Assembly (NCBI GenBank): GCA_015501595.1 | Contig: JADNRX010000084.1 | Location: 1 to 64,000, forward strand | Direction: 5' to 3' | DNA length: 64,000 nt | DNA from: Hymenopellis radicata | Lineage: Eukaryota > Basidiomycota > Agaricomycetes > Agaricales > Physalacriaceae | Shown here: positions 3,813-63,074 of the stretch, one piece after another | Layout of the letters: every line of letters begins with the position of its first letter | Numbering within the stretch: position 1 is the first letter of the stretch | Position numbers and translations under genes: made by a program | The notes under the pieces: model-generated | Database searches by the model: none | Told to the model about the DNA's origin: nothing | Seen by the model: the letters and a program-made list of their open reading frames with translations, nothing else

Positions 3813-4597
3813 ATGTTCTCCCTCTTCGCTCGCCGCCTGCCCCGCACTACACTCTCCGCCATTCATTTATGCGCGCGCGGTGTAGCAACTGTAACAGAGG
3901 TCGGCCCGACCAACGCTGTCTTCGTTCACGTCGTTCAGAAGATTGACAACAAAATCTCGCACCAAGCCCTCAAAGACGGCCTGGCTGCCAAATTTGGTCC
4001 CGTCGAGCGCCTCTGGCTCAAGCTTCCCGCTGGCAGGAATTGCATTGTCACCTTCCAGGAGCAAGCCGACGCTCAGAAGTTCATGGACAAGGGGACACTA
4101 GAGATTCCTCCAGCAATCCTGTCCGCCCAAAACTTTTCAGGGCCTCGCAAACCCGAGACGGGGACCCAGTCCAAACTCCGGAAGATAGACGACACCAAGA
4201 AATTCCCCCAACTTATCTTGCATAACATTCCTGCACAATTTGGTGTCTCAGCACCCGACATTGCCAAAGCGTTTGGCCAATTCGGCAAGGTCAGCGTTAG
4301 ACAGCGTACGTGGCTCCCTACTTTCGTGTTTCCTTCCAGCTTACCAGACTCTTAGCCACTTTCGGCGGATACCCTCGCGCTTTTGCCTTCGTTTCCTTCG
4401 AATCTCAGGAAGCCGCTGACAAGGCTCTGGAGACAATTCGGTCCGAGGAGGGGATCGTCATTGAGGGTGCCAGACTCGATGCAACTTACTCCGACGCCCA
4501 ACAGCGCCCCGACGGAAAGTACCCTGGTATGTTTCTTCTTCAATACTCCTTCCTTCGCGTCGCTAATCCTACTACAGTGCTCGCTGCCGAGTCTTAA
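3813..4597 (+). CDS. Two-RRM protein, predicted mitochondrial (tandem copy 1)
   Basis: Exons are 3813-4305, 4356-4526 and 4578-4597, which gives about 227 residues. The N-terminus (MFSLFARRLPRTTLSAIHLC) is rich in Arg, Ser and hydrophobics with no acids, typical of a mitochondrial presequence. RRM1 covers roughly residues 36-105 and RRM2 residues 132-205; RRM2 is split by intron 1 and contains RAFAFVSFES as its RNP1-like strand. A role in mitochondrial RNA binding is inferred from these two features only. The ATG at 3813 is chosen because the two other copies start at the same MFSLF. An upstream in-frame ATG at 3750 exists only here. The product is very similar to copies 2 and 3. Confidence 0.85.
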
Positions 4598-46556: not shown

Positions 46557-46817
46557 CTAGGGTTTTAAGGTCAGGTCAGGTCAGGTCAAATGACCTTTCG
46601 ATGCCATGACCGGTGACCGGATCGGTCAGCCAAATCTTGCATTTTGGCTTGACTGCTGACCGTGACCGGTTAAGCAGTCTGACCGGTCAGGTCACAATCG
46701 GTCAAGGCAGTTATAACCGGTTATAACCGGTTTCGGTCATGACCGGTCATTCTCGGTTATAGTCGGTCTTGACTGCCATTATTTCACTAAAACGGTAACA
46801 GGTGGGACCGAACCCTA
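46557..46817. repeat. ACCGGTCA-rich element, left of the TET/JBP island
   Basis: Starts TAGGGTTTTAAGGTCAGG, then has a run of GGTCA repeats and many copies of GACCGGTCA or ACCGGTTA in both orientations. About 260 bp later it reaches GGGACCGAACCCTA. It is the inverted-orientation relative of the element at 53991-54211 (whose outward end is also TAGGGTTTT). I find no convincing target-site duplication here. Confidence 0.7.
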
Positions 46818-46968
46818 GACCAGAGGTATATTCCAAGTATAAGAGTCAAGCATACAACCCAGTACACCATTGTGCTACAGAAACCTAAGCCCCATGGCTT
46901 TCATCCTCGCTCTTCAAGGCAATATGTATACAAAAAAAAAGAATACAATTCAACTAACAAGATACAAG

Positions 46969-48626
46969 CTATACGACAGGAAAATACTTAAGTCCATCAC
47001 TCCAGCGACGCTCACGATCTACCTCCCACTGCTCCTTCTCTTCATCGGAGGCCTGTGACCAAAATTCCTCATCCGTTCGCCCACCGTTGTACACCCAACG
47101 AAAGAGACCACCGGCGGAGTAGTGAGTGACAGAATAGCGACGCTCTCCAGCTCTAATGCGAATGTTTGAGTGAATGATTAGGGCGGAGGGAAGGTATATG
47201 GTGGAGCCGGGAGGTAACTCAATGACGAGCTTCAGATCCCAAAGGACAATGTGGCCTCCTTTGGAATGGTCGAAAGGTCCGAAGGGAGATACCGCACACC
47301 AGCCATCAGGCTTGTTTGCGAAATCGCCGTGAGGTTCACAAATGGCGCGTCCGCCGCAGTTAACGGTCATACAGGCGAACGGGTTGTTGGAATAGTTGCG
47401 ACGGAGGTGGGGAAGGGCGGAGGTGAGGGAAGTCAGCGTCGAGGAGTACGCGTGGTACATGGGTGCGTTGTGTGTCTCGAAGGTTCCTGTACATAGTCAG
47501 CAAACGAAAGATAAGGGTTGCGAAAGAAAGCACGCACTGCCAACCCAGCCCGCCAGACGAATGAAACAATGGTTGTGGAGAAGACCATGCATGAACGTCT
47601 TGACACCGGCGGAGAGTGCACGGTTTCCCGGAGCCTAATAAGAGTAAGTACCAAAGCCGAATATAATTAAAGAAAATACACACCAACTCGCCACCTCCAT
47701 GAGAAACGCCCACCGCCGGGGCAGGAAAGCGCCCACGTTTGTGAATGCGCTGTTTCTCTGAAAACGAGACGCCGCGAGAACCCTGCTCAATGGCATCAAC
47801 TACGCCATTCTCCACCGCGGCCCATCCATCCTCATCGCGAGGCTTTCCAGCAATAAGGACCATCATGCGACGATGGCGGTCCACAATAGGGCGACTTCCG
47901 GGAGTGTAGGTGATGAGACGCATGCCGTCTTGCGCGAGTACCCACTCCAGATCGTCGGCATGAGTTTTCGAGGGGATATCACGACGTTTGCCCTTCCATC
48001 CACCTTCAGCTGCAGGAAGGTCTTGGGCGTCGATATCCACGATAACAGGCTCGAGCATCTCGCGCTGACGCTTTGCCCCCACGTCCTTGACTGAGGATCC
48101 CGATTCATCCAGCTTGCGTTTACGCGCAGCAAGCCGACGTGAGCGAGAATTTCTCGTTCGGTGGTTTTGGGAGGATGGGATGGGTAACTCGTGAATTGTG
48201 GACGATGGTAGAGATGAGGACGATAGGGAGGCTGTGACGGGTGGCGATGGCGGGGCAGGATACGCGTCTGTGGAAGATTGAGGCTGTAAAAGAAGTAAGT
48301 AGAGCATGTAATCAACGAATAAAAATACGCACGATTTCCGACGCGCGCTCATCCTCCAGCTCGTTCTCTGTGTCGACATCCTCTTGCACAGCCTCCATCT
48401 CCGTGTACCGGAGGGATAATAGGTCCTTCAGGTCAACGTCGACCACAATAGGCGGCCCAAGCTCCTGCCAGGGTGAAAAATTCGCGTCCTGTGCGTGTTT
48501 TTCGCACTAAAGGGCAAGAATCAGCATATGTTCGGATAAGAGAGGAGACAAAGAATGAACCACGCAGCATGGTACGCGCTGAATAGTGTATGCATGGGAC
48601 TCCGCGTCCCAGGTCGGGTCTTCGGC
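46969..48626 (-). CDS. TET/JBP-type 2OG-Fe(II) DNA dioxygenase
   Basis: The family oxidises 5-methylcytosine or thymine in DNA and is hugely expanded in Agaricomycetes. Visible exons: to 48576 (PTWDAESHAYTIQR), 48506-48333 (FSPWQELGPPIVVDVDLKDL), 48283-47684, 47634-47538 and 47486-46969. The catalytic part has the HxD in AICEPHGDFANKPDGWC, then FDHSKGGHIVLWDLKLVIEL, the distal His in IIHSNIRI and the 2OG-binding Arg in GERRYSVTHYSAGGLFRWV. RRMMVLIAGKPRDEDGW and PAVGVSHGGGEL precede the catalytic fold. All key residues are present and in frame. The N-terminal start is unresolved. The recognition rests on family memory. Linked to transposons: a hAT transposase lies 1.8 kb upstream on the same strand. 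Confidence 0.82.
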
Positions 48627-48886
48627 CCACACACACACACCAGACGCGTACCAGCACGAAATAGAAGAGACTCAAGAAAGAAAGGACGTACTCCTGGAGA
48701 AAGGCGAACGAGGCGACGCAGACAAGGGTGCAAGGTGGTAGTCAGTGGGAAAGAAGTTTTAACCTTTGTTGATTTGTTTGGCTACAGATCAGTACAAATA
48801 AAATGAGGTGCAAGGGGGTGTCTTCGAAGATAGGCTGGATACATGAAGGGAGGCATTGGTTGAAGGGTAATATCATGGCTATCTGT

Positions 48887-49942
48887 CTATGCCGCCGCAG
48901 TGTCTTTGGAGTCGCCAACGATTGTACCCATCATCCTCCAATTCCGCTCGTTCCCCTCTACGTTCTCCTCATTCGGCGAGATCTAGAATAATGATAATTA
49001 GCTAAGTAACCAATAAGACAAGGACGACGCACAGCTACGACACGCATTAGCGCCACACGAACTGCTCGAATTGCAGCTTCTGTGTTTTGAGCAACACGTT
49101 GTTGGAGATGTTGAGTACGAGCATGATCCGCAAAGACGCGTTCCACCGAGGTATTGGAGGGACAAGGAGGGTAATTCGTCAAAGATGACATGGTAGATGA
49201 TGGTAGGATGCAGGATGCCGGGTGATCGGACGAAGAATGCAAGATGATCGACATGGAGATTGAGGTAGATACGACAAACAGAGAATACAAAACAACAAGA
49301 AGTACGAGTACTGTCCGTACGGACGCATACGAGTACTTGTGAACGCGAACTTTTACATCTTTTTGTCCGGCGTGCAATCTTTACATCCTGGCGTATCCGT
49401 GCGACCTTCTGATTATGTTTGGAGCGCAAGGCCCTTTGCTCCTCGGTATACTGCTGGTCGTATTTGGGAGTGCCGCGGCGAGGAAGGAGCTCGGGGTTGA
49501 CACTGCGAAACGAGTGGGTTACAAACGGGGCAATAGACAAGAAGTCCACGTACTCTCGGCGAGACTGCTGCTCGTTCAGAGACAGGTCGTATCTCCTCTT
49601 TCCGCGATAGGTATCATTATAACTATTTTCGCGAGCGCGGGCCGCTGCATATTCCTCCTCTGATTGACGTTCGCGTGCTCGTTTCCTAGAACCTGATCAG
49701 TGTGCGAACAACATATAGATGAAGGAGACACACCTGGCCATGCACTCCCGTGAAGCTTGGCGTCGCCGTTCTCGCCTTTCCTCGTCACTGTCTGTCCCTC
49801 GCCTCTCCTTCTTCGCCTCTTCCCGCCGTCGGCGCTTTTCTGCCAGAAAATCCCTATGTCGAAGAGCATCCTGCGTAGCTTCAACGGCATGGGGGCACCG
49901 GAAGTTTTCCGTGCACGTTCAGAGAACTTGCTTCGTGCCATA
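48887..49942 (-). CDS. Unknown basic, coiled-coil protein next to the TET/JBP gene
   Basis: Plausible coding starts near 49930 with FRCPHAVEATQDALRHRDFL, then a strongly charged helix (EKRRRREEAKKERRGTDSDE), a GT-AG intron, KRARERQSEEEYAAARAREN, SYNDTYRGKRRYDLSLNEQQ, and FRSVNPELLPRRGTPKYDQQ. A separate later exon has YPPCPSNTSVERVFADHART and QNTEAAIRAVRVALMRVVA, then an intron and ISPNEENVEGNERNWRMMGT ending at 48887. The start codon and the middle joins are not resolved. I do not recognise the family. It shares strand and island with the dioxygenase, which makes a functional link worth testing, no more. Confidence 0.45.
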
Positions 49943-50391
49943 GAGCCAGGGAGATAGGGTGGTGTATCGGCTTGACGAGGAGATGATGATCGTTCAAGAC
50001 AGAGATAGTACTGATCAGTAAGTACTTGCCAAGTTTGACATTTGATCACGCACACGTAAAGTCTCAATCGTTCATTGTGGCGGTAGACTCAGTAGGAATA
50101 CTGTTCGTCGTGGTAACGATTTGTAAAAAGGTCCTTTGTAAAGAATATTGACCCAACGTACCGCCATATCTGTGGAAGCACGGTAAAGTTGGTATATTTG
50201 GCGGCTGAGATGGTGTTAACTCACCATGCAACCGCAATCACGTACAACTGTTTTCTCCTCATTTCCGAAGTTTCTTCACTGCTGGATGGGTTAACGAGCG
50301 CGAGGTCACACAGAAGTATGGGTGGAAAACAAATGGATTGAGCAAAGGTAAGTTACTAACTACAAATCAAGCTCCAAGTCCATCATAGTAC
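49943..50391. other. Intergenic region
   Basis: No recognisable gene between the unknown basic protein and the 3' end of the hAT transposase. Confidence 0.45.
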
Positions 50392-53300
50392 CTAAAGCTT
50401 CCAGCTGGGAGTCGAGCTTTGCGCGCTCCTCATCTCCGCCAACAACGCCTCGTACGGTTCGATTGTGACCGGTTCGTTTTCGACATGCTGGTTAATGGCG
50501 GCGAAGTCCGTCTTGTCTTCCCGCCAGCGAGCTTTCATTAGCTGCAGCTCCTCGAACTTCACCGAACCCAGTCGAGCACGAAGAGAGGACGCCGTTTCGC
50601 CACTGCTCGAGAACATACGTTCGCAGGAGAACAGATGTGGCTTGCGCGGGGAGAATGTCTACTGCCATGCGGGCAATGGTCGGCCAACGACGTGCATTCT
50701 TCTACAGATTGAATGGTTAATAATTGGCAGACAAGAAAAATATAACACATACCTCCCAGTGCTGGCAGAGATCCATCTTTGCCGTGGCCTTCTTCGCAAA
50801 ATGCTTAGTCCAAGAATGCATCTCGGCCTCCCAAGAAGTACGGCCCGTATCACGAGTCTTCATCAGAGTCTCCCGATAGCGGGCAAACTCGACGTCGGGA
50901 TCCTCATCGTTGGATTCGGAATCGGATTCCTCAGCTGGGCCGGGTGACGAAGTAGGAGGATGGACGGAAGAGCGAGCGTCGTCACCCTCATCCTCAGAAT
51001 TGTCTTGATCGGGGTCGTCGTCGCTGGCGTTGCTGTCCGATTCCTCCGGCCCGAGATAATCTCTTGCAAACGAATGGGCCAATACTTCTCCATCTGCAGA
51101 CTCAAGTTAGATCAGTAATCGGTGAACAAAAAGAGGAACATACCCGCCGCTTCCACAACCTTTCGTGCTTCCTCTTGCCAATTCTTTGCATTTGGATTAC
51201 CATCTGCGATTTCTTGCGCCTGCTCTTTCGCTCCTCCCCAGTGCTTTTCGAACCACGAGAGCTTGTAGAACGGATGGATAACTAATGGAAATGAATTAGT
51301 GTGACGAGTGAATGAATTAAAATACGCACACATTGCCAGAATATATGACGGTTTCAGATCAAACTTGCTGTAGTATTTTTTCGAACTTGGCGATGCCGGC
51401 GTCGATGGCGGGGTAGTACAATTCGAATCGGGGATCTTTGCGTTTGGTCGTCCACTGTTTCAGGAGTTTTTCGTAGGCCGGGATTACACTCCAAATAGTG
51501 GGCTTCTCGCTTGACGACCAACTCTGCTGGATGCTGTGAGGATCCTGACAAATCCATTAAGGAAGAGAAAGCTCAGAAACAAATACTACGCACCTTAAGG
51601 AGAAGTTCGCAGTCTTGAACGCGGACCCAGTCTTCCGCGCCGAGCTTGAAATGCCGTCCAAGGAATCTTCTTGGTAGGTTGTCCTTTCTGGCGAATGACG
51701 GTAATAGGTCCGTACCGGTCATCCGCAGAGTCAAGAAAACGGTTAATGGCCTAAAGAGAATCTTAGGAAGGCAGACAATATATATAGGATGACGCACCTT
51801 TTTTAATTTGTGCGCGCGATGAACCATGCCATATGCAGTCCCCAGCGCGTGTTTCCGTGAAGAATGAGTGCCAGCGTGTTCTTCAAGCCGAGCTCCGTCT
51901 GAAGTGCGTGGAAGTACGCGATGCGTTGTCCAGATGCTTGAATCTTGACGGTTAACGTCCGGATCGCGGCAAGGACATCGAGACCGCCGAGAATAAGGTT
52001 GTCCGGGTCGCTGGGATCCATTCCCAGATGGCTTGAGTCGTGGCAATGGCGGCTTGCGAGGTGATCATGGTCATCATGGCCTCGATACCCAAGTTGAGGA
52101 TATGCGCAAGACACCTGCAAGTAAATTAGCGTGAATTAAAAATAAGAAGAACTTGCACGCACATCAGCTGGTGCTGAGCCGCCTTCCAATCGCCGAGATC
52201 CAACGCCTTGTGAAGCTTTTCGAGAGCGCGACAAAATGGTCCATTGCTTGGGGCGTTATCCAGAGTAACGTCTCCAAGCTGAGTTTTGAAACTCAGCAAG
52301 GCGTAGATCAACGAGACCAAACTAACTGACCTTTGATATCTTCTTCTCAATATCGATGATGCCGACTCTCTGGCAGGTACTGAAGAAGTACCTCGCTTCG
52401 TTCTCCCCGCTGTGGTCGCCCTCAATGGCACGGAATCCGATTACCGACGTCCGGATACTCCATTTTGGACGCTTGTTCTCTCGGATCGCGATCACTGTCC
52501 AAGTACCGGTGCATCCCAAGAATCCGGTCTTTCGCGCGTGTCTTTCTGCAGTCCAGGCATCGGCAGCGCCGCAGATGACGCCAATGGCCTCCTTCACCAA
52601 GGTGAGTATAGAATTTTTCTACTGAATGGGAATGCCTACCTTGATCGCTTTTCTATCATCTTCTAGGGCCTTCACTAATTCATTATGAATGAAGTTCATG
52701 ATCTTGTAGCGGTGGGTAGCTCTGAGGCGACGGTGGATGGGCGCATTGCGACGAGAGCATTTCGGAATTTTAATATTATTGGCAGTGGCGAGGGACTGGC
52801 GAATATCGGTGAGTATTTCCTTTCATCAATCAATACGACTTACCTGGTCCGTGCAGCAGATGAACTTTGCGATATGCTCCAGCGCGGAAGCAACAGTAAA
52901 CCCCTTAGGAACCTTCGACTTGTCAAAACCCATCCCCGTCAACTTTCCAGCATTTGGATCCTTTCCTGCCGCCTTCGCCTCTGCCGCCTCTGCCGCCTCT
53001 TTCTTTTTCTTCAGGTCGGCCGGAGGCATGGCGCTGTCACGTATCTCCAGTCCCTTATCCTTGCAATACTTCTCATATACGTCGAAATGTTGCCGACAAT
53101 GAGCGCGAAGTGAGGAGTTGCCGCCGACTTTGAAGGCCCCTCGGAGGCCGGTCTTACCGTTAATGATGTTCGGATTAGCTCTGGTATCATGGTAAGTCAT
53201 CGGCTACTATCATCCAGAGAAATTGAACAACATACTTGCAGATCCTACAGAAACGGCCGGTAATCGGCTTGTCGTTGTTCTGGCCGCGAAATACAACTGC

Positions 53301-53815
53301 TTTGACCGGGTCGAATATGCTGTTGAGGTCATCCGCGCTGGCCTTGGTTTGGTGGACTTGTGGGATGTCTGCCGTATGGCGGCTATGGAGGACCTGTTTC
53401 TTGCATGGTGAGTTAACACGACAGCACGAAGATATGGGTTGCTCACTTTGTCGTTGCCAGCCTCGTCTTCCGACACCTCTATCACTTCGTCGCTAACAGT
53501 CGCCATGGACACGTCACCGTCTCCATTACCGCCGCCGTCTTCACTGTTTTGCTCGACGACGACGATGGCCTTCTGCCTCTTCTTGGCAGGTGCCTTACCC
53601 TTACCGTTCTTTGATTTGGTGACGACCTCTCTCTCGGATGCCTCGCTTTCGTCGCCGCCGCCCTCAGAGCTGTCGTGTGCGCGCTTATTACCATTAGCTG
53701 CCTGTCGTCGGGTGACTGCTCCCGTTGCACCCTTTGCAGTTGCAGTCTTGGTAGCTTTTTTGTTCGGGGGATTTCCCTTACTGCTCGAGGCAGCCGGTTG
53801 CTTGCGGGGAGGCAT
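50392..53815 (-). pseudogene. hAT-superfamily transposase, degenerate
   Basis: The N-terminus is lysine-rich with nuclear-localisation-like KSKNGKGKAPAKKRQK, then a BED-like zinc finger (CRICK ... LRAHCRQHF). The catalytic RNase H-like fold has AADAWTAERHARKTGFLG, SVIGFRAIEGDHSGENEARY, GDVTLDNAPSNGPFCRALEK and MCLAHILNLGIEAM. The C-terminal dimerisation region is CERMFSSSGETASSLRARLG. At least six frame changes separate these blocks (near 52720, 52760, 52028, 51830, 51640, 51385 and 50618), both plus and minus one, several at homopolymers. This is more damage than in any housekeeping gene of the window, so true decay is likely even if some events are sequence errors. Confidence 0.85.
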
Positions 53816-53990
53816 TGCAAGTTGAGGGAAGAGAGGTCGGAAATTTTGGTTGGACTAGGCTCTTATTATCGTTTGTTTATTTCCACTTCCGTAGCGATCG
53901 ACAACTCGAGTACAGCTCGCCACCCTCTATATTTCCCAAATCTTTTAATAGACATAAATATATTAGCTTTGCAGTAGTTATCTGTGCTTA

Positions 53991-54211
53991 AGACCGGTCA
54001 AAACCGGTCAAAACCGGTCATGACCAATACCGGTCATGACCAGCCTTAACTGGTTAAGTGCGGTCAAGGATATTTCCGAGAAATGACATAACCTGTGACC
54101 GTAACCGGTTAAATGATGTGACCGGTCAAGTCTTAGCGGTCAAATTCTCGGTCAGGTCCGGTCAGGTCAAGCAATTTGACCGGTCAAGCTTGACCTGACC
54201 CGAAAACCCTA
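53991..54211. mobile_element. 221-bp non-autonomous hAT-like element with 8-bp target duplication
   Basis: Starts AGACCGGTCAAAACCGGTCA and ends CCCGAAAACCCTA. It is packed with GACCGGTCA and ACCGGTTA words. The 8-bp TGTGCTTA is repeated exactly on both sides (53983-53990 and 54212-54219). The other copy of the flanking hAT sequence carries TGTGCTTA once (61333-61340), so this is an insertion. An 8-bp duplication is the hallmark of hAT transposition. Confidence 0.85.
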
Positions 54212-56526
54212 TGTGCTTACCATACCCTCGTACAGCGCCGAGTGCGTTCGTTGGGTTGCTGAGTCGTTCCGGCCGTTCAGCATCGTCAAGGATCGAGCAT
54301 TTGAAAAGCTCATGAAAAGCGGGCGTCCCGAGACGTACATCCCGCATCCCACCACGATCTCTCGCGACACCAAGGTCCTGTTTGGGAAAACACGTCGTCG
54401 TCTAGCAACCTTTTTCCAAGTAAGTCTTCCTTTCAACTATACTGATAATGGGTACTCACCACGTCTAATAGAATTATCCCGGTCGTATCGCCCTCGCCAC
54501 GGATGCGTGGACCTCGCCTAATCATCGCGCCTTCGTTGCCTACTCCGCTCACTGGGAGGAAAATGGGGAACCCGTCAGCGCGATGCTCGACTTTCGCGAG
54601 CTAGCCGAGTCACATACGGGCGAGGCACTGGCCAATCTCACGAAGGAAGTCGTCGAGGAGTTTGGAATCGAGGATAAGGTCTGTTGTGGCTGTCTGTGCA
54701 TGTAAATAATAGTTATTCATGAAATGTCAGATTATTGGCATTACCTGTGACAATGCGGCCAATAACGACGTGATGATGGACAAACTCGGCGAAGACATGG
54801 AGGATTTCGATGGTCCACGGGCGCGTGCGCGCTGCTTCACGCACGTCGTCAACTTGGTGGCTAAAAGCCTGTTGAAACTGTTCGACGCACCAAAGAAAAA
54901 GAGCCGCAAGTCGAAGAAGGGCAAGGAGAAGGCCGCTGACACAGAGTTTGACGACGACGATGATGATGCTGCTGCCGAGGAAGAAGACAAGGATCCTATC
55001 GACATCGCGGACATACTTGCCCAGCTCAAGCTCATGGAGCTGACCACGCCGGAGATGGACGACCCGGACGACGTCTTCGACGAGCTTGCAACGATGGAAG
55101 AGGGTGCCAAGCTGGAATTCTTTAATGAGGTAAAGGCTGTATCCAAGGCCTTGTCAAAGGTGAGCTCTCACGCTGTCAATCAGTCTTCTATTAATGTAAC
55201 GAACTTACTAAACGCCCTTTGCCCAGATCCGAAAAATCTCCTTCAAGATCATCAACTCGACCACCATCTTGCTACCTCGCTGGAACGCCCTCGTCGCCGA
55301 ACACAACCTGTCGCCCAAGAAACTCCCTCGTGACGTCCCCACTCGATGGAACTCGACATACGACATGTTGAATGTCGCACTGCAATATAAGCGCGTCGTT
55401 CGCGATATCACTGGCGAGGACGCGCTGCTAGACTTCACGCTGACGAATGTCGAGTGGGAAACACTGGAGAACCTACGTGACGTTCTTTCTGTATGTTCTC
55501 TTTTATCTTGCTCTTTCTCAATTCTAACCAAGCATGTCTTTAGGCCTTCAAGGATGCAACGACGTTCTTCTCAAAGCGTAGTACCACCCTCGCCTCCGTC
55601 ATTCCAGCTATGGAAGTATGCTGGCCACCGCCGTCATCAAGAAAGATACCGGCGACGTGACTCTATCTAAACCCATCAAAGCTGCCCTCCTCGTCGCAAA
55701 AAATACCCTCAATCGCTACTACAACCTCACCGACATGTCTGACCTGTATCGCATCGCTATTGGTACGTTGTTCAATATATAAATTAACTGTGAACTCATC
55801 TGCATCACAGTCATGCATCCTCGTTACAAGTTCGGGTACTTTGATGACCAGAACTGGTTACCCCAGTGGAAGAAGGACGCGTGCCGGCTTGTTCTTCGGA
55901 CCTTCGCGAAATATGAGGAGGCGTACGAGCGTGAGTTAGTTGAGATTGTCGAAGATACGCCTGTTCAGCCCAAGGTATGTTGCATTCTTTCCTCATCTAA
56001 CTTAGCGGCTAACTTCATTTAGCCATCAACGACGTTCAATATGTTCGACGCCATCAATGACGAACCGATCCCCGACACCGAGATCAAGCACAACGAGCTC
56101 GACCGATATCTCGCCGCTGACCGTCAGCTCGTGAGGGATCCGTTGAAGTGGTGGTGCCAAAATGAGGCGACATACCCCATCTTGTCTCGCATGGCGCGCG
56201 ATTATCTCTCTATTCCCCGTACGTGCTGTTTCTCTTCTATATCATTTTGTTCTGATTCCTGTGCAGCATCTTCTGTTGATGTCGAGCGTTTCTTTAGTAA
56301 AGGACGTCTCCTCATTACACATGTTCGAAACCGACTTACTGGGCAGACGGCGCGGGCCTTGATGTGCCTCGGCTCCTGGAGTCTCCTCGACATGATCCAC
56401 GATGAGGACATCGAGCGTGTCACCCGCCTGCCACAGGTTCCGGAGGCTGATGGCGACGAGGACGGGGATGTTCTCATGCCTGAAGGATACGAACGCATTG
56501 TGCTGCTGTCCGCCGACGACGCGTAG
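54212..56526 (+). pseudogene. 5'-truncated copy of the second hAT transposase
   Basis: Starts inside an intron; the first complete exon begins at 54236 (AECVRWVAESFRPFSIVKDR). Then TDAWTSPNHRAFVAYSAHW, IIGITCDNAANNDVMMDKLG, RARCFTHVVNLVAKSLLK, an acidic insert, LPRDVPTRWNSTYDMLNV, and the dimerisation domain ASSVDVERFFSKGRLLITHV. It lacks the zinc-finger N-terminus present in the inverted copy at 59026-62768. Both copies share one frame break at PAME|SMLATAVIKKDTG (here near 55611), so that lesion predates the duplication. Not expected to make active transposase alone. Confidence 0.9.
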
Positions 56527-56780
56527 GTTATTGTCATTATATTTCCGCTCGCTTGTACATACATCATATCTACTGCTCTACTATGTACCATTACCTACTG
56601 TTCCGCAGGTGTGTACATAGTCTAAATGTATGGTTTTTCGTGGCGAAACGCATTAGAATAAGAATGGGTCGGGTAACCCTTAGACCCGTGCTCACCCTTG
56701 GGTGAATCTTGCGGGAAACCCGCACCCTCGACGCGGGTGGGGGTGATAGGCGGGTAAGGGTCCGGGTTTATTCCGAACTA

Positions 56781-57033
56781 CTGTACTCTTTCGACCGCAT
56801 TTTCACATAACGCGTCACGCGTGCATGTGAAGTGAAGATCTAGATACACCATAATGCATCACGGTCCAGATTTTTAGGTACGGGATGCCCAAAATAGCAA
56901 AAATTTCGGCCGCCCAAGGCGGGCCGTCCAAATAAGGAAATTTGCGCTGTTTTTGACCCTAATGAAGATGTTCGCTACATCTTCACAACCATAACGCGTC
57001 ACAGGCCGTGAAGATATGGTCGAAAGAGTACAG
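56781..57033. mobile_element. TA-flanked MITE (type 1), left arm only
   Basis: Ends CTGTACTCTTTCGACC and GGTCGAAAGAGTACAG, perfect inverted repeats, with TA on both sides. The right arm at the same place (near 58544) reads CCGAACTACCCGG with a single TA and no element, so it is the empty site. The interior has CATAACGCGTCACG words. Confidence 0.92.
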
Positions 57034-57090
57034 TACCGGAAATCACCCGCGCTATTCACTAGTGCTAAGTAGCAAACATGGTACCCAGTG

Positions 57091-57778
57091 TACTGTAGTG
57101 TTACGACTCGATATTCACATAACGCGTAACATCGGGTCGTGAACTGAACTAATTCGCCACCCATAATGCGTAACAGGCCAAAATTTGTGCGTCAGCAAGC
57201 CCAAAAAGGAATTTTTCATCATGGCAGCTGCCGCCACCGGTCCTTTTACGGTAATTAGACCCTGAATGAACTACGAGTTTGTTAGTTGTAATATGTAACA
57301 CCCGGTGAACATCGGGTTGTAATACTATACACTTTAATTCAATTCGTCGGTCACGGGTCACAGAGGATCCGAAATTGACGAAAAGTCACAAGAGTCACGC
57401 GAAAATTGAGAAAAAAAGTCCCTGGCGGGGCCCCCGCCAGCCTCCCGCCGCGGCGGCAATTACCATATATGGTAATTCGACGAAACCATAATTTCATCGG
57501 ACCGGTCACAGGTCACATGGCCCGACGAATTGAATGAAAGTCTACAGTACTACAGTATTGTACTACTGTCCTATTTCGACCGTAGGTTCACATCACGGGT
57601 GACAAGCCCGAAAAATGAACCTATTATACTGTCCTATTTCGACCATAAGTTCACATCACAGGTCACAGGCCTCCGAATTTCCTTATCGGACACCGGAAAA
57701 CGCCTCCGATCACTTATCGGGCGTGGGAAGGTCAAAAAATTCAAAATTTTGTGAACTTACGGTCGAAATACTACAGTA
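57091..57778. mobile_element. Cluster of TA-flanked MITEs, partly nested
   Basis: At least three elements. 57093 to about 57330 starts CTGTAGTGTTACGACTCG and ends in a degenerate complement. 57325-57547 (type 2) has CACTTTAATTCAATTCGTCG and CGACGAATTGAATGAAAGT near its ends and a CCATATATGGTAATT core. 57566-57776 has CTGTCCTATTTCGACC and GGTCGAAATACTACAG, and a second internal copy of the left end at 57630. Adjacent or overlapping ends suggest insertion of one into the edge of another. Confidence 0.75.
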
Positions 57779-58517
57779 TAAGCAGGTCACTAGTTTTTTT
57801 TGGCTGTGAACCTGCCCCAAATTGGTCACAAATTGGACTTTTGCTCTCAAATTGAGCTTGACAACAGTTTTTATAGGATTTTTCTCCTTTTTGGTATATT
57901 TTCTATCTAGAATAGTACATTTTTCTCTAATTATACTGAGATTCAGCCTAAAACCTATGAAATAACCCTGCCATTGAAAAATTTAGTGAACTTATTTTCA
58001 GTAAGTCACAGTGGTGTACTGTACTATCGCGACCACAAATTCACCTAACACGTCACAGGACCCTATGAAATGAACCTATTCGGTTCCCATAACATGTAAC
58101 GGGCAATTTTTTCCGTCGGGTCAGGCCCTAATGAGGAAATTTTTCGCACGGCGGCTAGCGCCGCCACCTTCCGCCACTCTCGATATAGACTTCAGACCCT
58201 GAATGAACTACTGTACGGTTTCGACCATAAGTTCCCATAACGCATCACGGGAACTTCGGAACTGAACTTAGCACTTTGGATAACGCGTAACGAGGCTCTA
58301 TTTCAGGGTTGTGTCGCTCAAAACGACAATTTTTCGGGCCTGCCTGTGGTGGGACTTCCAAATCGGGTGGTGTGCCTGAAAACTAGTAAACAGCCCAGAT
58401 GTCCCGCGGATGATTCAATTTGAACCCGCACCTGAACTCGCCAAGTACCCACATCCGCCTCACGGGTACGGGTCACCCGCCATAATCACCCTCGGGCCTT
58501 GAGGGGTTGACGAGTTA
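57779..58517. other. Spacer of the inverted repeat with degenerate MITE pieces
   Basis: AT-rich to about 58000 with no gene. From 58010 on, fragments with CTGTACTATCGCGACC, ATAACATGTAACGGGC and ATAACGCGTAACGAGGC resemble type 1 MITE ends and interiors but I cannot pair their termini. Part of 58290-58380 (GGGCCTGCCTGTGGTGGGAC) matches the MITE interior at 62340-62390. Confidence 0.6.
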
Positions 58518-58744
58518 CTAGTGAATAGCGCGGGTGATTTCCGGGTAGTTCGGAATAAACCCGGACCCTTACCCGCCTATCACCCCCACCCGCGTCGAGG
58601 GTGCGGGTTTCCCGCAAGATTCACCCAAGGGTGAGCACAGGTCTAAGGGTTACCCGACCCATTCTTATTCTAATGCGTTTCGCTACGAAAAACCATACAT
58701 TTAGACTATGTACAAACCTGCGGAACAGTAGGTAATGGTACATA

Positions 58745-58977
58745 CTGTAGACTTTCAATCAATTCGTCGGTCTATGTGACCTGTGACCTCTCTGACGAAA
58801 TTTTGGTTTCGTCGACTTACCACATATGGTAATTACCGCCGCGGCGGAGCTGCGGCGGGAGGCTGGCGGGCGCCCCGCCGTGGACTTTTTCGTGATTTTA
58901 GCTGTGACTACTGTGACTTTTCGTCGATTTCGGATCCTCTGTGACCAGTGACCGACGAATTGATTTAAAGTCTACAG
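58745..58977. mobile_element. TA-flanked MITE (type 2), right arm only
   Basis: Ends CTGTAGACTTTCAATCAATT and AATTGATTTAAAGTCTACAG, with TA on each side (58743-58744, 58978-58979). The left arm has the empty site CTCTACTATGTACC near 56580. The interior has CACATATGGTAATTACC and a GC-rich CCGCCGCGGCGG core. Confidence 0.92.
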
Positions 58978-59025
58978 TAGTAGAGCAGTAGATATGATGT
59001 ATGTAAAAGCGAGCGGAAATATAAC

Positions 59026-62000
59026 CTACGCGTCGTCGGCGGACAGCAGCACAATGCGTTCGTATCCTTCAGGCATGAGAACATCCCCGTCCTCGTCGCC
59101 ATCAGCCTCCGGAACCTGTGGCAGGCGGGTGACACGCTCGATGTCCTCATCGTGGATCATGTCGAGGAGACTCCAGGAGCCGAGGCACATCAAGGCCCGC
59201 GCCGTCTGCCCAGTAAGTCGGTTTCGAACATGTGTAATGAGGAGACGTCCTTTACTAAAGAAACGCTCGACATCAACAGAAGATGCTGCACAGGAATCAG
59301 AACAAAATGATATAGAAGAGAAACAGCACGTACGGGGAATAGAGAGATAATCGCGCGCCATGCGAGACAAGATGGGGTATGTCGCCTCATTTTGGCACCA
59401 CCACTTCAACGGATCCCTCACGAGCTGACGGTCAGCGGCGAGATATCGGTCGAGCTCGTTGTGCTTGATCTCGGTGTCGGGGATCGGTTCGTCATTGATG
59501 GCGTCGAACATATTGAACGTCGTTGATGGCTAAATGAAGTTAGCCGCTAAGTTAGATGAGGAAAGAATGCAACATACCTTGGGCTGAACAGGCGTATCTT
59601 CGACAATCTCAACTAACTCACGCTCGTACGCCTCCTCATATTTCGCGAAGGTCCGAAGAACAAGCCGGCACGCGTCCTTCTTCCACTGGGGTAACCAGTT
59701 CTGGTCATCAAAGTACCCGAACTTGTAACGAGGATGCATGACTGTGATGCAGATGAGTTCACAGTTAATTTATATATTGAACAACGTACCAATAGCGATG
59801 CGATACAGGTCAGACATGTCGGTGAGGTTGTAGTAGCGATTGAGGGTATTTTTTGCGACGAGGAGGGCAGCTTTGATGGGTTTAGATAGAGTCACGTCGC
59901 CGGTATCTTTCTTGATGACGGCGGTGGCCAGCATACTTCCATAGCTGGAATGACGGAGGCGAGGGTGGTACTACGCTTTGAGAAGAACGTCGTTGCATCC
60001 TTGAAGGCCTAAAGACATGCTTGGTTAGAATTGAGAAAGAGCAAGATAAAAGAGAACATACAGAAAGAACGTCACGTAGGTTCTCCAGTGTTTCCCACTC
60101 GACATTCGTCAGCGTGAAGTCTAGCAGCGCGTCCTCGCCAGTGATATCGCGAACGACGCGCTTATATTGCAGTGCGACATTCAACATGTCGTATGTCGAG
60201 TTCCATCGAGTGGGGACGTCACGAGGGAGTTTCTTGGGCGACAGGTTGTGTTCGGCGACGAGGGCGTTCCAGCGAGGTAGCAAGATGGTGGTCGAGTTGA
60301 TGATCTTGAAGGAGATTTTTCGGATCTGGGCAAAGGGCGTTTAGTAAGTTCGTTACATTAATAGAAGACTGATTGACAGCGTGAGAGCTCACCTTTGACA
60401 AGGCCTTGGATACAGCCTTTACCTCATTAAAGAATTCCAGCTTGGCACCCTCTTCCATCGTTGCAAGCTCGTCGAAGACGTCGTCCGGGTCGTCCATCTC
60501 CGGCGTGGTCAGCTCCATGAGCTTGAGCTGGGCAAGTATGTCCGCGATGTCGATAGGATCCTTGTCTTCTTCCTCGGCAGCAGCATCATCATCGTCGTCG
60601 TCAAACTCTGTGTCAGCGGCCTTCTCCTTGCCCTTCTTCGACTTGCGGCTCTTTTTCTTTGGTGCGTCGAACAGTTTCAACAGGCTTTTAGCCACCAAGT
60701 TGACGACGTGCGTGAAGCAGCGCGCACGCGCCCGTGGACCATCGAAATCCTCCATGTCTTCGCCGAGTTTGTCCATCATCACGTCGTTATTGGCCGCATT
60801 GTCACAGGTAATGCCAATAATCTGACATTTCATGAATAACTATTATTTACATGCACAGACAGCCACAACAGACCTTATCCTCGATTCCAAACTCCTCGAC
60901 GACTTCCTTCGTGAGATTGGCCAGTGCCTCGCCCGTATGTGACTCGGCTAGCTCGCGAAAGTCGAGCATCGCGCTGACGGGTTCCCCATTTTCCTCCCAG
61001 TGAGCGGAGTAGGCAACGAAGGCGCGATGATTAGGCGAGGTCCACGCATCCGTGGCGAGGGCGATACGACCGGGATAATTCTATTAGACGTGGTGAGTAC
61101 CCATTATCAGTATAGTTGAAAGGAAGACTTACTTGGAAAAAGGTTGCTAGACGACGACGTGTTTTCCCAAACAGGACCTTGGTGTCGCGAGAGATCGTGG
61201 TGGGATGCGGGATGTACGTCTCGGGACGCCCGCTTTTCATGAGCTTTTCAAATGCTCGATCCTTGACGATGCTGAACGGCCGGAACGACTCAGCAACCCA
61301 ACGAACGCACTCGGCGCTGTACGAGGGTATGGTAAGCACAATATTATTGAGCACGATGAATCATACTCACCGGACTTCAGGCTTTGTTAGAGGGACGTGC
61401 GAGAAGATTCGGGCCCCAGCCTTCTTGAGCTTGGTAAAGGCCGTCGTGAGTAGCCCATTCTTCTTGCCGCCATGTTTCTTGACGAGGCCGCGTGCCTTAT
61501 CCAGGTTCTGCATCTCGAGCGCCGCTGTGACTGTATCCTTACCCCAGCAACGGATGGCATGGTCCTTGAGGTTCTTCGTGGACGTACGATCCTGTGTCTC
61601 GAGGTTGCGAGCGACGCGATGCTTGCAGCCGCGAGCGGCGCAGGTGAACATATGATGCTTTTGATTTTTACCACTCGTTTTGTTGCGCCGATACTCGATT
61701 GCCATTTCGGGACGGAAGAATGCATAGATCGGGGTGCGTAGATGTTTGCGGATATTTTCTGAAGAATACTGATTAATATATGACAGGGCTTCAAGACGAA
61801 GAACATACCAAGCTCCTGCTCATCGGTCAGCTCGACAATCTCGACCTCAGGCGACGGTGAGCGGACAGATGGGACACGGGGACCTTGACGGCCAGAACGA
61901 GGCTGTTCCTCGATGTCGTTGTCGACCTCGGCTGTACGACTTGGTCCAGCCGAAGATTCAGCTTGACGGCGACGTTCGTCGTAGCCGTCTCCCATGTCCT

Positions 62001-62768
62001 CGACATCCTCAATGACAGTACGGCGACGACGGACTGGGACGGGCTGAGGGATGTCATCGTCGACGTCCATGCCCATACCGTCGGACGAGAGACTGAAGCG
62101 GCTAGCAGCGGGTGAGGATGCCTGGGAGGAGCGCATAGACTCCAAGGCCGGCATGTTGTCCTCCGACGGCGCGAAAGAGCTCGCGTCGTTGAACGCAAAC
62201 TCGCCTAAAAAAAAAATTTAGCAAGGATGTCTACTGTACCGTTTCGACCGCATGTTCGCATAACGCGTCACGCGGCCGTCGGAACCTAACTTAGAGCTAA
62301 TGATAACGCGTAACGGGGCCTCATTTCAGGGCTGCATCGCCCAAAACGGCAATTTTTCGGGCCCGCCTGCGGCGGGACTTCCAAATTGGGCCTTGTGCCT
62401 GAAAACGAACCTATTTCCTGTAAGTTCGCGGCATAACGCGTCACATGCCGCGAACTTACGGTCGAAACGGTACAGTAGATGGGATCGGCGGAGTACCTAC
62501 TCTCACTGTCCGTGGCGGTGACGAGGCCAGGAAGGGACGACGACGACGAGGATGTGCGCATGCTGAACGCCTTCTTCGTCGAGGCTGCTTTTTTAGGGGG
62601 AGACAGAATGGTAACAACTTTTTTGAAGGTATTACCGACGGCTGATGCCGCTTTTGCAGTGCGTGAGATTTTGGGCTGAGGAGGTCCTCCAGAGTCCGAC
62701 GTGGGCTCTGGCGACTGCGACGCTTGTCGTTTGGCGCTGGGTCGCCGCTCGCGCGGTGGCAGCTTCAT
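59026..62768 (-). CDS. hAT-superfamily transposase with full N-terminus
   Basis: Exons: 62768-62501, 62204-61809, 61758-61371, 61316-61133, 61080-60874, 60821-60393, 60325-60062, from 60008, then from about 59740 and 59570 to 59026. It begins MKLPPRERRPSAKRQASQSP, has a serine/acidic disordered region, then a BED-like zinc finger (MFTCAARGCKH ... LKDHAIRCWG), the catalytic blocks TDAWTSPNHRAFVAYSAHW, CDNAANN and RCFTHVVNL, and the dimerisation domain SSVDVERFFSKGRLL with LTGQTARALMCLGSW. The first intron contains a MITE. One frame break near 59940, shared with the truncated copy, argues that this copy is inactive or that a few bases are missing in both. Confidence 0.85.
62234..62475. mobile_element. 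TA-flanked MITE (type 1) inside a transposase intron
   Basis: Ends CTGTACCGTTTCGACC and GGTCGAAACGGTACAG, perfect inverted repeats with TA on both sides. It lies wholly within intron 1 of the hAT transposase (62205-62500). Removing the element and one TA leaves a 52-nt intron, the normal size here. Interior words GATAACGCGTAACGGGGCC and CATAACGCGTCAC match the other type 1 elements. Confidence 0.93.
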
Positions 62769-63074
62769 GATCGAGGCGATGAATGAGGACCGGAGTTGTG
62801 GCGATGTCGAATAGAGTTGGATGGAAAGAAGCGACGATGGATGTCGTTGACGGGAGGACCCTTTATATTGTGTTGCACTTATTTACGGAGGCAAATTTTT
62901 GTGTACTGCGAACGGAATCTAACCTTGCTGTACCTCCTAGCCAGTTTCGACGCCACGGGTGACACGGGTAACCTGTGTCACACCGGGTTTTGCCGGGTTC
63001 CCAAAATGGAACCCTCACCCGAACCCGCGGCTACCCGAACCCGCGACCCGGTCCGGGTTACCGAACCCGCGCTA

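Follow-up and report, generated by a model that had tools for sequence, protein, structure and literature searches.

Organization and insertion sites of element E

The stretch of DNA analyzed here (the window; 64,000 nucleotides within contig C1229, 173,325 bp, of the mushroom Hymenopellis radicata) contains at positions 46,558-54,211 a 7,654-bp element, designated E, which carries a hAT transposase gene, two small open reading frames (ORFs) and a gene for a TET/JBP-like Fe(II)/2-oxoglutarate dioxygenase. All genes lie on the minus strand, and the element, to which no strand is assigned, is a complete transposon running from TAGGGTTTT to AAAACCCTA. A first-pass annotation had described this region as an island at 46,557-54,211, with three minus-strand genes flanked by inverted GGTCA/ACCGGT-rich arrays and TAGGGTTTT facing outward at each; the arrangement and the unit itself are borne out by the sequence, with the start corrected to 46,558. 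All copies of the E family discussed below come from this single genome (75.5 Mb). One protein encoded in the window is NCBI BDZ89DRAFT_951577 (Hymenopellis radicata).

The terminal inverted repeats are located at 46,558-46,578 (plus strand; TAGGGTTTTAAGGTCAGGTCA) and 54,191-54,211 (minus strand; reverse complement TAGGGTTTTCGGGTCAGGTCA), and 19 of their 21 bases match. Each lies at the outer edge of a subterminal array (repeat motif written ACCGGTCA; no strand assigned), the left at 46,558-46,817 and the right at 53,991-54,211. Short terminal inverted repeats together with dense subterminal repeats are a hAT feature. The two arrays total 488 bp (0.8% of the window), yet account for 13 of the 24 ACCGGT sites in the window; they contain 30 CpGs, 13 of which are within ACCGGT, and the only two 250-bp bins in the window with at least five GGTCA/TGACC motifs are found here, one per end of E, with 17 motifs each. 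The left array ends at 46,817 with an internal inverted ACCCTA, and three elements (E at 46,817, C808 and C1151 at the equivalent positions) have a second, inward-facing copy of this terminal motif 190-260 bp in from the left end.

A genome search with 46,557-54,211 returned the window itself and one full second copy of E (C245:4,356-11,995), which is 99% identical and has the same terminal bases. The junctions of the second copy read ...ATATTGTGCTTA / TAGGGTTTT ... AAAACCCTA / TGTGCTTACCATACC..., with an exact duplication of TGTGCTTA on either side of the whole element. The left flank of C245 matches the minus strand of the window at 61,333-63,074, the match being interrupted by ~242 bp of extra sequence in the window. 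At this match the window reads ATATTGTGCTTACCATACC and E is absent, leaving an empty site inside the gene of another hAT; the target sequence TGTGCTTA lies at 61,333-61,340 (minus strand) in a copy of this second hAT (58,517-63,074). The right flank of the window copy (54,212-57,063), beginning with the right target-site duplication TGTGCTTA at 54,212-54,219 (plus strand), carries the target gene that is also seen in C245, and is repeated in inverted orientation at 58,517-61,340 (99.5% identical over the main 2,377 bp). Because the whole unit in C245 is bounded by a perfect 8-bp duplication and the corresponding empty site is present in the window, the region 46,558-54,211 is one cut-and-paste hAT-superfamily transposon with its own TET/JBP dioxygenase. 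Earlier doubt about a single composite element is overturned by the TGTGCTTA-element-TGTGCTTA structure in C245 and by the unfilled site in the window's second hAT copy.

The outer flanks of the window copy are unequal, as the first-pass annotation had pointed out, and the left flank is foreign, with its junction falling exactly at the E terminus. The odd junction can be explained by a rearrangement via the end of E or by an assembly join, and the C245 and window copies may be one insertion represented twice. A search for the partner of the left junction with an exact 15-base pattern (AACCCTACGAGAACC) gave no matches. The annotation had also given the right bracket its own 8-bp duplication; the 8-mer in question (at 53,983) is instead an internal copy of the 8-mer flanking the full element in C245. 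The same 8-mer occurs at two unrelated places in the window (365, and 25,748 on the minus strand), and by our own arithmetic the chance of finding a given 8-mer within 7.65 kb is ~12%. The right bracket was rejected as an independent miniature inverted-repeat transposable element (MITE), with matches in other contigs starting at 54,028 or later. In a more sensitive search with a query from 53,981, the alignments of full-length relatives begin at 53,992 or 54,003 and lie within full elements. The right array is paired with a left end in all 6 full-length and 11 short copies examined, and two contigs with the right end only (C719 and C1225) have it near the contig ends.

Genes carried by the element

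The dioxygenase gene occupies 46,969-48,570 (minus strand; exons at about 48,570-48,333, with a candidate ATG at 48,570, and at 48,283-47,684, 47,634-47,538 and 47,486-46,969). As assembled it has one 1-bp frameshift at 48,476, where C245 is in frame, and its catalytic domain is open. Relatives of the TET protein are present in Lentinula and Mycena. A fold predicted for the TET domain (P0001, 284 amino acids; mean predicted local distance difference test score, pLDDT, 95.6) has CcTet, NgTET1 and TET2 as its best matches (Foldseek, VIA), with AlkB-type proteins and FTO scoring clearly lower, and in this model the E dioxygenase has the TET/JBP double-stranded beta-helix fold. The HxD...H Fe(II) triad is invariant in all 48 aligned TET-family sequences, 10 of which match the Pfam Tet_JBP model at E<=0.1 (best 9.5e-7). 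Profiles A1 and A2 recovered no TET from the PDB by sequence, their other matches there looking like chance, and profiles of E's TET family did not retrieve CcTET at E<=10. Elsewhere in the genome, weak Tet_JBP matches under the cut-off (E ~2e-4) were seen at C391, C1362 and C699 (L001-L003).

Ratios of nonsynonymous to synonymous substitution rates (dN/dS) of 0.11 (window versus C161) and 0.15 (C556b versus C808) suggest that the TET gene is under purifying selection; transposase ratios were contaminated by frame errors and were not used. Projected codons of the catalytic part hold no stop in five of the six full-length copies and three stops in C161, and the TET gene of C808 is split by an insertion.

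The transposase gene lies at 50,363-53,815 (minus strand), with ~12 exons by comparison with copy C556b, whose open 12-exon model encodes 953 amino acids. In C556b the hAT domain PF05699 is matched at E 9.8e-10 (38.5 bits versus a cut-off of 21.4), and it is also above cut-off in C245, C161, C556a, C808 and C946; no match above cut-off was obtained for the window copy, in which the frameshift at 50,630 interrupts the motif. On domain content, the siblings with an open frame show the transposase of the family to be a hAT transposase. With a trimmed query, six fungal relatives at 39-43% identity were found, five with a hAT C-terminal domain; the untrimmed query gave a single match, probably swamped by low-complexity words, and in each protein search the best 7,995 candidates by common words were scored. 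Agaricales genera with hAT relatives include Lyophyllum, Hypsizygus, Tricholomella and Agaricus. Hermes is a weak PDB match of the C556b protein (E 0.007). Candidate D-D-E catalytic motifs are present, assigned by comparison with known hAT motifs.

The first-pass annotation called this transposase decayed, which is not established. The window gene has frame breaks as assembled at ~50,630 and 51,649; C245 is in frame at 50,630, as it is at 48,476 in the TET gene, and has its own break at ~51,673. Decay is indistinguishable from sequence error because the 51 differences between the two copies (the last being the end of C245) are nearly all single-base insertions or deletions. Projection on the C556b protein gives 0 stops in C556b, 1 in C556a, 2 in C808, 4 each in C161 and C245, 5 in C946 and 6 in the window, counts that are imperfect in that projections can enter introns or other frames.

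Between the two large genes, a single gene had been proposed at 48,887-49,942; in its place are two ORFs conserved in siblings. The first (49,505-49,941, minus strand; MARSKFSERARKTSG...RKRARERQ...) encodes an Arg/Lys-rich basic protein, its exon structure is uncertain, and similar segments occur in C161, C556 and C808. The second (48,958-49,191, minus strand) starts MSSLTNYPPCPSNTSVERVFA, and its first ~50 amino acids (NT[PS]VER[VA]F) are recognizable in the same three contigs. Neither has a Pfam match in the window. The basic ORF is probably associated with the hAT and not with the TET gene, judging from the C574 hAT, which has an analogous ORF (by eye) and no TET detected inside its ends. 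A conserved palindromic stretch (CGTATGCGTCCGTACGGACAGTACTCGTA; 49,295-49,340, no strand assigned) lies between the two ORFs, with similar sequence in C161 and C808 and in part in C556.

Relatives of E and the distribution of TET genes

Full-length relatives of E were found in C161, C556 (copies a and b) and C808, making six places with C245 and the window; all of them carry a TET half. The 8-bp target-site duplications of the hAT superfamily are found in the E family, matching at four of these places: TGTGCTTA in C245, CTGGATAC in C556b and GAGAGGAG in C808 are exact, and ATGAGGCC in C161 has one extra base. There is no matching duplication at the left junction of the window copy or at C556a. 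The two C556 copies (50,802-58,111 and 58,737-66,045; L035 and L036) are inverted, 625 bp apart and 99.9% identical. With its perfect duplication in C556b and mismatched flanks in C556a, this pair provides a further case of an odd junction that coincides exactly with the end of an E element. Between the same termini, the order of transposase, basic ORF, small ORF and TET gene is unchanged in C161, both C556 copies and C808; the pattern named in advance as the mark of a coincidental island (genes independently placed, brackets scattered as solo MITEs) is thus not what is seen.

Other relatives are less complete. C946 retains the transposase side of the family. Eleven short relatives have both ends, with an exact 8-bp duplication in nine and seven of eight bases in two; by comparison they share only the ends with E, and exist as its non-autonomous siblings. 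Further single-end matches occur in C719, C1225, C40, C136, C954 and C634 and once more in C556. A separate set of ~2-6 kb elements with E-like ends (L041-L051; C474, C1151, C728 and others) has common internal stretches that do not match the genes of E, and these are probably non-autonomous.

The full-length copies are mosaic. Between C556b and C161, identity is 93% across an initial 4.1 kb that spans the right terminus, the transposase and the beginning of the basic ORF, and drops to 65% in the other 3.1 kb. For C161 and C808 it is 97% in the first 4.1 kb and 81% in the 0.5 kb that follows; it then falls to 64-73%, apart from the final 0.2 kb (80%). In contrast, C556b and C808 are 87% identical over the first 5.3 kb (variable middle part included) and 97% over the TET half; in alignment intervals of ~400 columns, their identity is 88-99% as far as C556b position 4,063, 53-82% between that position and 5,275, and 96-99% beyond. 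Transposase halves that are 93-97% identical are therefore joined to TET halves (TET gene and small ORF, with one terminus and the greater part of the basic ORF) that are only ~65% alike. Misjoined contigs do not explain this contrast, because the duplications flanking C556b and C808 are exact and that of C161 differs by a single additional base. The simplest reading is that the TET half has been exchanged between elements. The affinity of the window's TET gene varies along its length: identity in three intervals of the catalytic part is 76, 77 and 70% to C161 versus 69, 70 and 67% to C556b, and in the intervals on either side 53 and 55% to C161 versus 57 and 59% to C556b. The pairing of window and C161 in a tree of 60 TET rows is weak (0.473).

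Across the genome, 55 TET places (taken from 127 matches after dropping second exons and most weak matches) were compared with at least 108 KDZ, 39 Plavaka and 68 hAT places, the lists having been thinned to about one match per place. Nine TET places have a hAT within 12 kb (1.2 expected from random placement), at least five have a KDZ element (1.9 expected, among the KDZ matches listed) and five a Plavaka element (0.7 expected). The nine are the six E copies plus C202, C475 and C574, and their TETs form one group in the 60-row tree (support 0.998), consistent with a single capture. The window and the five TET places most similar to it are all hAT-linked, on the same strand and with the transposase upstream. 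Among the matches listed, none of the six E copies has a KDZ or Plavaka within 12 kb of its TET gene, and both were rejected as the TET carrier; a short Plavaka match in C808 lies 12.6 kb from the TET gene and 2.7 kb outside the element. The annotation's linkage of a TET/JBP gene to a hAT without KDZ is strengthened into one transposon with filled and empty sites.

The remaining hAT-linked places differ in arrangement. In C574 the TET gene is outside its hAT (termini at 125,459 and 133,137; 8-bp flanks unequal). At C202:88,337-101,918 and C475:49,874-69,905, a more distant hAT transposase was observed with a TET gene 6.7-10.3 kb downstream of the nearest hAT-domain match on the same strand. 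The TET stretches of the two contigs share 98.9% identity over 1,772 bp, and these places may represent a second, larger family of TET-carrying hATs; common termini around the hAT and TET genes were not found in a comparison from which the intervening stretch of C475 was left out.

Probable function of the dioxygenase, known systems and neighboring sequence

E is likely to be a hAT transposon whose own TET protein keeps it expressed and mobile by oxidizing 5-methylcytosine. The transposase would bind the repeated GGTCA motifs beside the ends of E, host CG methylation of the element (e.g., at the ACCGGT sites and other CpGs of the arrays) would hinder this binding or transcription, and the TET protein would oxidize 5-methylcytosine there, the TET half possibly serving as an exchangeable module of the family. 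That methylation is removed from ends or promoters in particular is inferred from the enzyme class and from views expressed in the available text of PMC12730594.

An alternative that we regard as possible but unlikely is that the TET protein of this single transposon acts globally in trans, oxidizing 5-methylcytosine non-specifically and at other elements too, and does not protect its own ends. The available text of PMC12730594, citing other work, describes oxidized methylcytosine over many transposons, including retrotransposons, in Coprinopsis and Laccaria and speculates on non-specific action, and many TET relatives in this genome have no listed transposase nearby. However, the gene travels inside E, which fits a benefit to its own family, and its catalytic part is stop-free in most copies, though the C808 gene is split and the window gene is frameshifted near its N-terminus. 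A chance capture that is now decaying without benefit, as the stops in the C161 projection and the insertion in C808 might suggest, is very unlikely given the low dN/dS where computable, the triad invariant across the aligned family and the retention of the TET half in every full-length copy. That an independent TET gene, a hAT relic and two solo MITEs lie together by coincidence, with the unequal outer flanks and the 8-mer at the inner edge of the right array in its favor, is scarcely credible beside the conserved gene order and is refuted by the filled and empty sites, unless C245 is an assembly artefact.

Several observations nevertheless weigh against the proposal that E maintains its expression and mobility through its own TET protein. 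CpGs are not depleted in E (observed/expected 1.08 versus 1.07 outside), and the excess of CpG over other C/G transitions is 2.7-fold in one of six comparisons, 1.5- to 1.9-fold in three and absent in two. The window copy is frameshifted in its transposase and near the N-terminus of its TET protein, which matched no Pfam family above chance. Positions Gly331 and Asp337 of CcTET correspond to Asn170 and Cys176 in the E protein, if the alignment is ungapped between motifs, which bears on substrate preference. Synonymous divergence between the window and C556-type TETs is saturated (dS ~3), so that their dN/dS ratios of 0.045-0.046 are rough, and the pairs computed leave out C161 versus C556a, C556b and C808.

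TET-carrying transposons have been published in several superfamilies (hAT7, EnSpm, Plavaka, IS3EU, Harbinger, ESTA and Helitron; Kojima 2025, PMC12730594), and the earlier view that TET/JBP genes in Agaricomycetes are linked chiefly to KDZ was, going by the available text of that paper, incomplete. The closest counterpart described there, hAT7 of Puccinia, likewise combines a hAT transposase and a TET/JBP gene in one element, in the same orientation in three named elements. It has 7-bp duplications, a PU-type TET, rust hosts (Pucciniomycetes) and, in those three elements, TET upstream of the transposase, whereas E has 8-bp duplications, an Agaricales host and TET downstream. Placement of E in hAT7 was rejected on the length of its duplications.

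Elements of the Kyakuja/Zisupton (KDZ) type with AG-type TETs, found in Agaricomycetes, resemble E in having a TET/JBP enzyme inside a mushroom DNA transposon, but differ in their transposase. The KDZ-linked TETs of C774, C544 and C458, each of which has a divergent KDZ 2.2-2.8 kb away, share the HxDxxN...GxC motif with the E protein. The AG type is a near relative of CcTET that keeps Asp337 (and Gly331/Ser) (PMC12730594, available text), while the E protein gave no match to CcTET by sequence. The PE type, defined by HxE and carried by EnSpm, Plavaka, Zisupton and Helitron2 of Agaricus bisporus (same source), has an Agaricales host and very divergent TETs recognized by structure, as in E; it is excluded here by the HxD of all 48 aligned sequences, and no hAT is among the PE carriers listed in that text.

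The main text of PMC12730594 places the TET-carrying transposons of mushrooms only outside hAT and reports no case of an AG-type TET gene having moved from one superfamily to another. A literature search for hAT transposons with a TET dioxygenase in Agaricomycetes gave no match, and E does not appear in the titles and abstract openings retrieved on TET/JBP and transposons, on Kyakuja together with hAT (PMC7473861 among them) or on H. radicata transposable elements. A hAT with 8-bp duplications and a TET gene in Agaricales is, on sequence grounds, a further capture beyond the known TET-carrying transposons.

In the VANDAL/VANC system of Arabidopsis, a transposon-encoded protein counters the silencing of its own family (PMC5735166, PMC10398659, as far as the available text describes it). 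The idea of self-anti-silencing is common to both, and the comparison is a working analogy only. VANC is not known to be a dioxygenase, nor VANDALs to be hATs.

The mosaic TET halves suggest that the anti-silencing module evolves separately from the transposase. A broader proposal, about as likely as not, is that E belongs to a family of mushroom hATs in which a transposase half and an anti-silencing TET half form separate, exchangeable units, with TET cassettes swapped between co-resident elements in an arms race with host methylation; if true, such swaps would resemble those of weapon modules in phages. The dense CpG-bearing arrays at both ends of E are an obvious target for testing. One genome contains both TET-bearing and TET-less siblings, a related hAT with no TET inside its ends, KDZ-linked TETs and an empty site, and therefore whether TET protects the ends of its own element can be asked by comparing methylation among them.

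The second hAT bordering E is present as two near-identical inverted copies (54,212-57,063 and 58,517-63,074), the right one without E at the target site. Its ends resemble TAGTGAATAGCGCGGGT, and a duplication, GTAACTCG, is common to the left flank of C245 and the window end at 58,5xx (by eye). The ~242-bp insertion in this hAT (62,234-62,475) is found in the window only, being absent from C245, and is MITE-like, with TACTGTACCGTTTCGACC ends (by eye).

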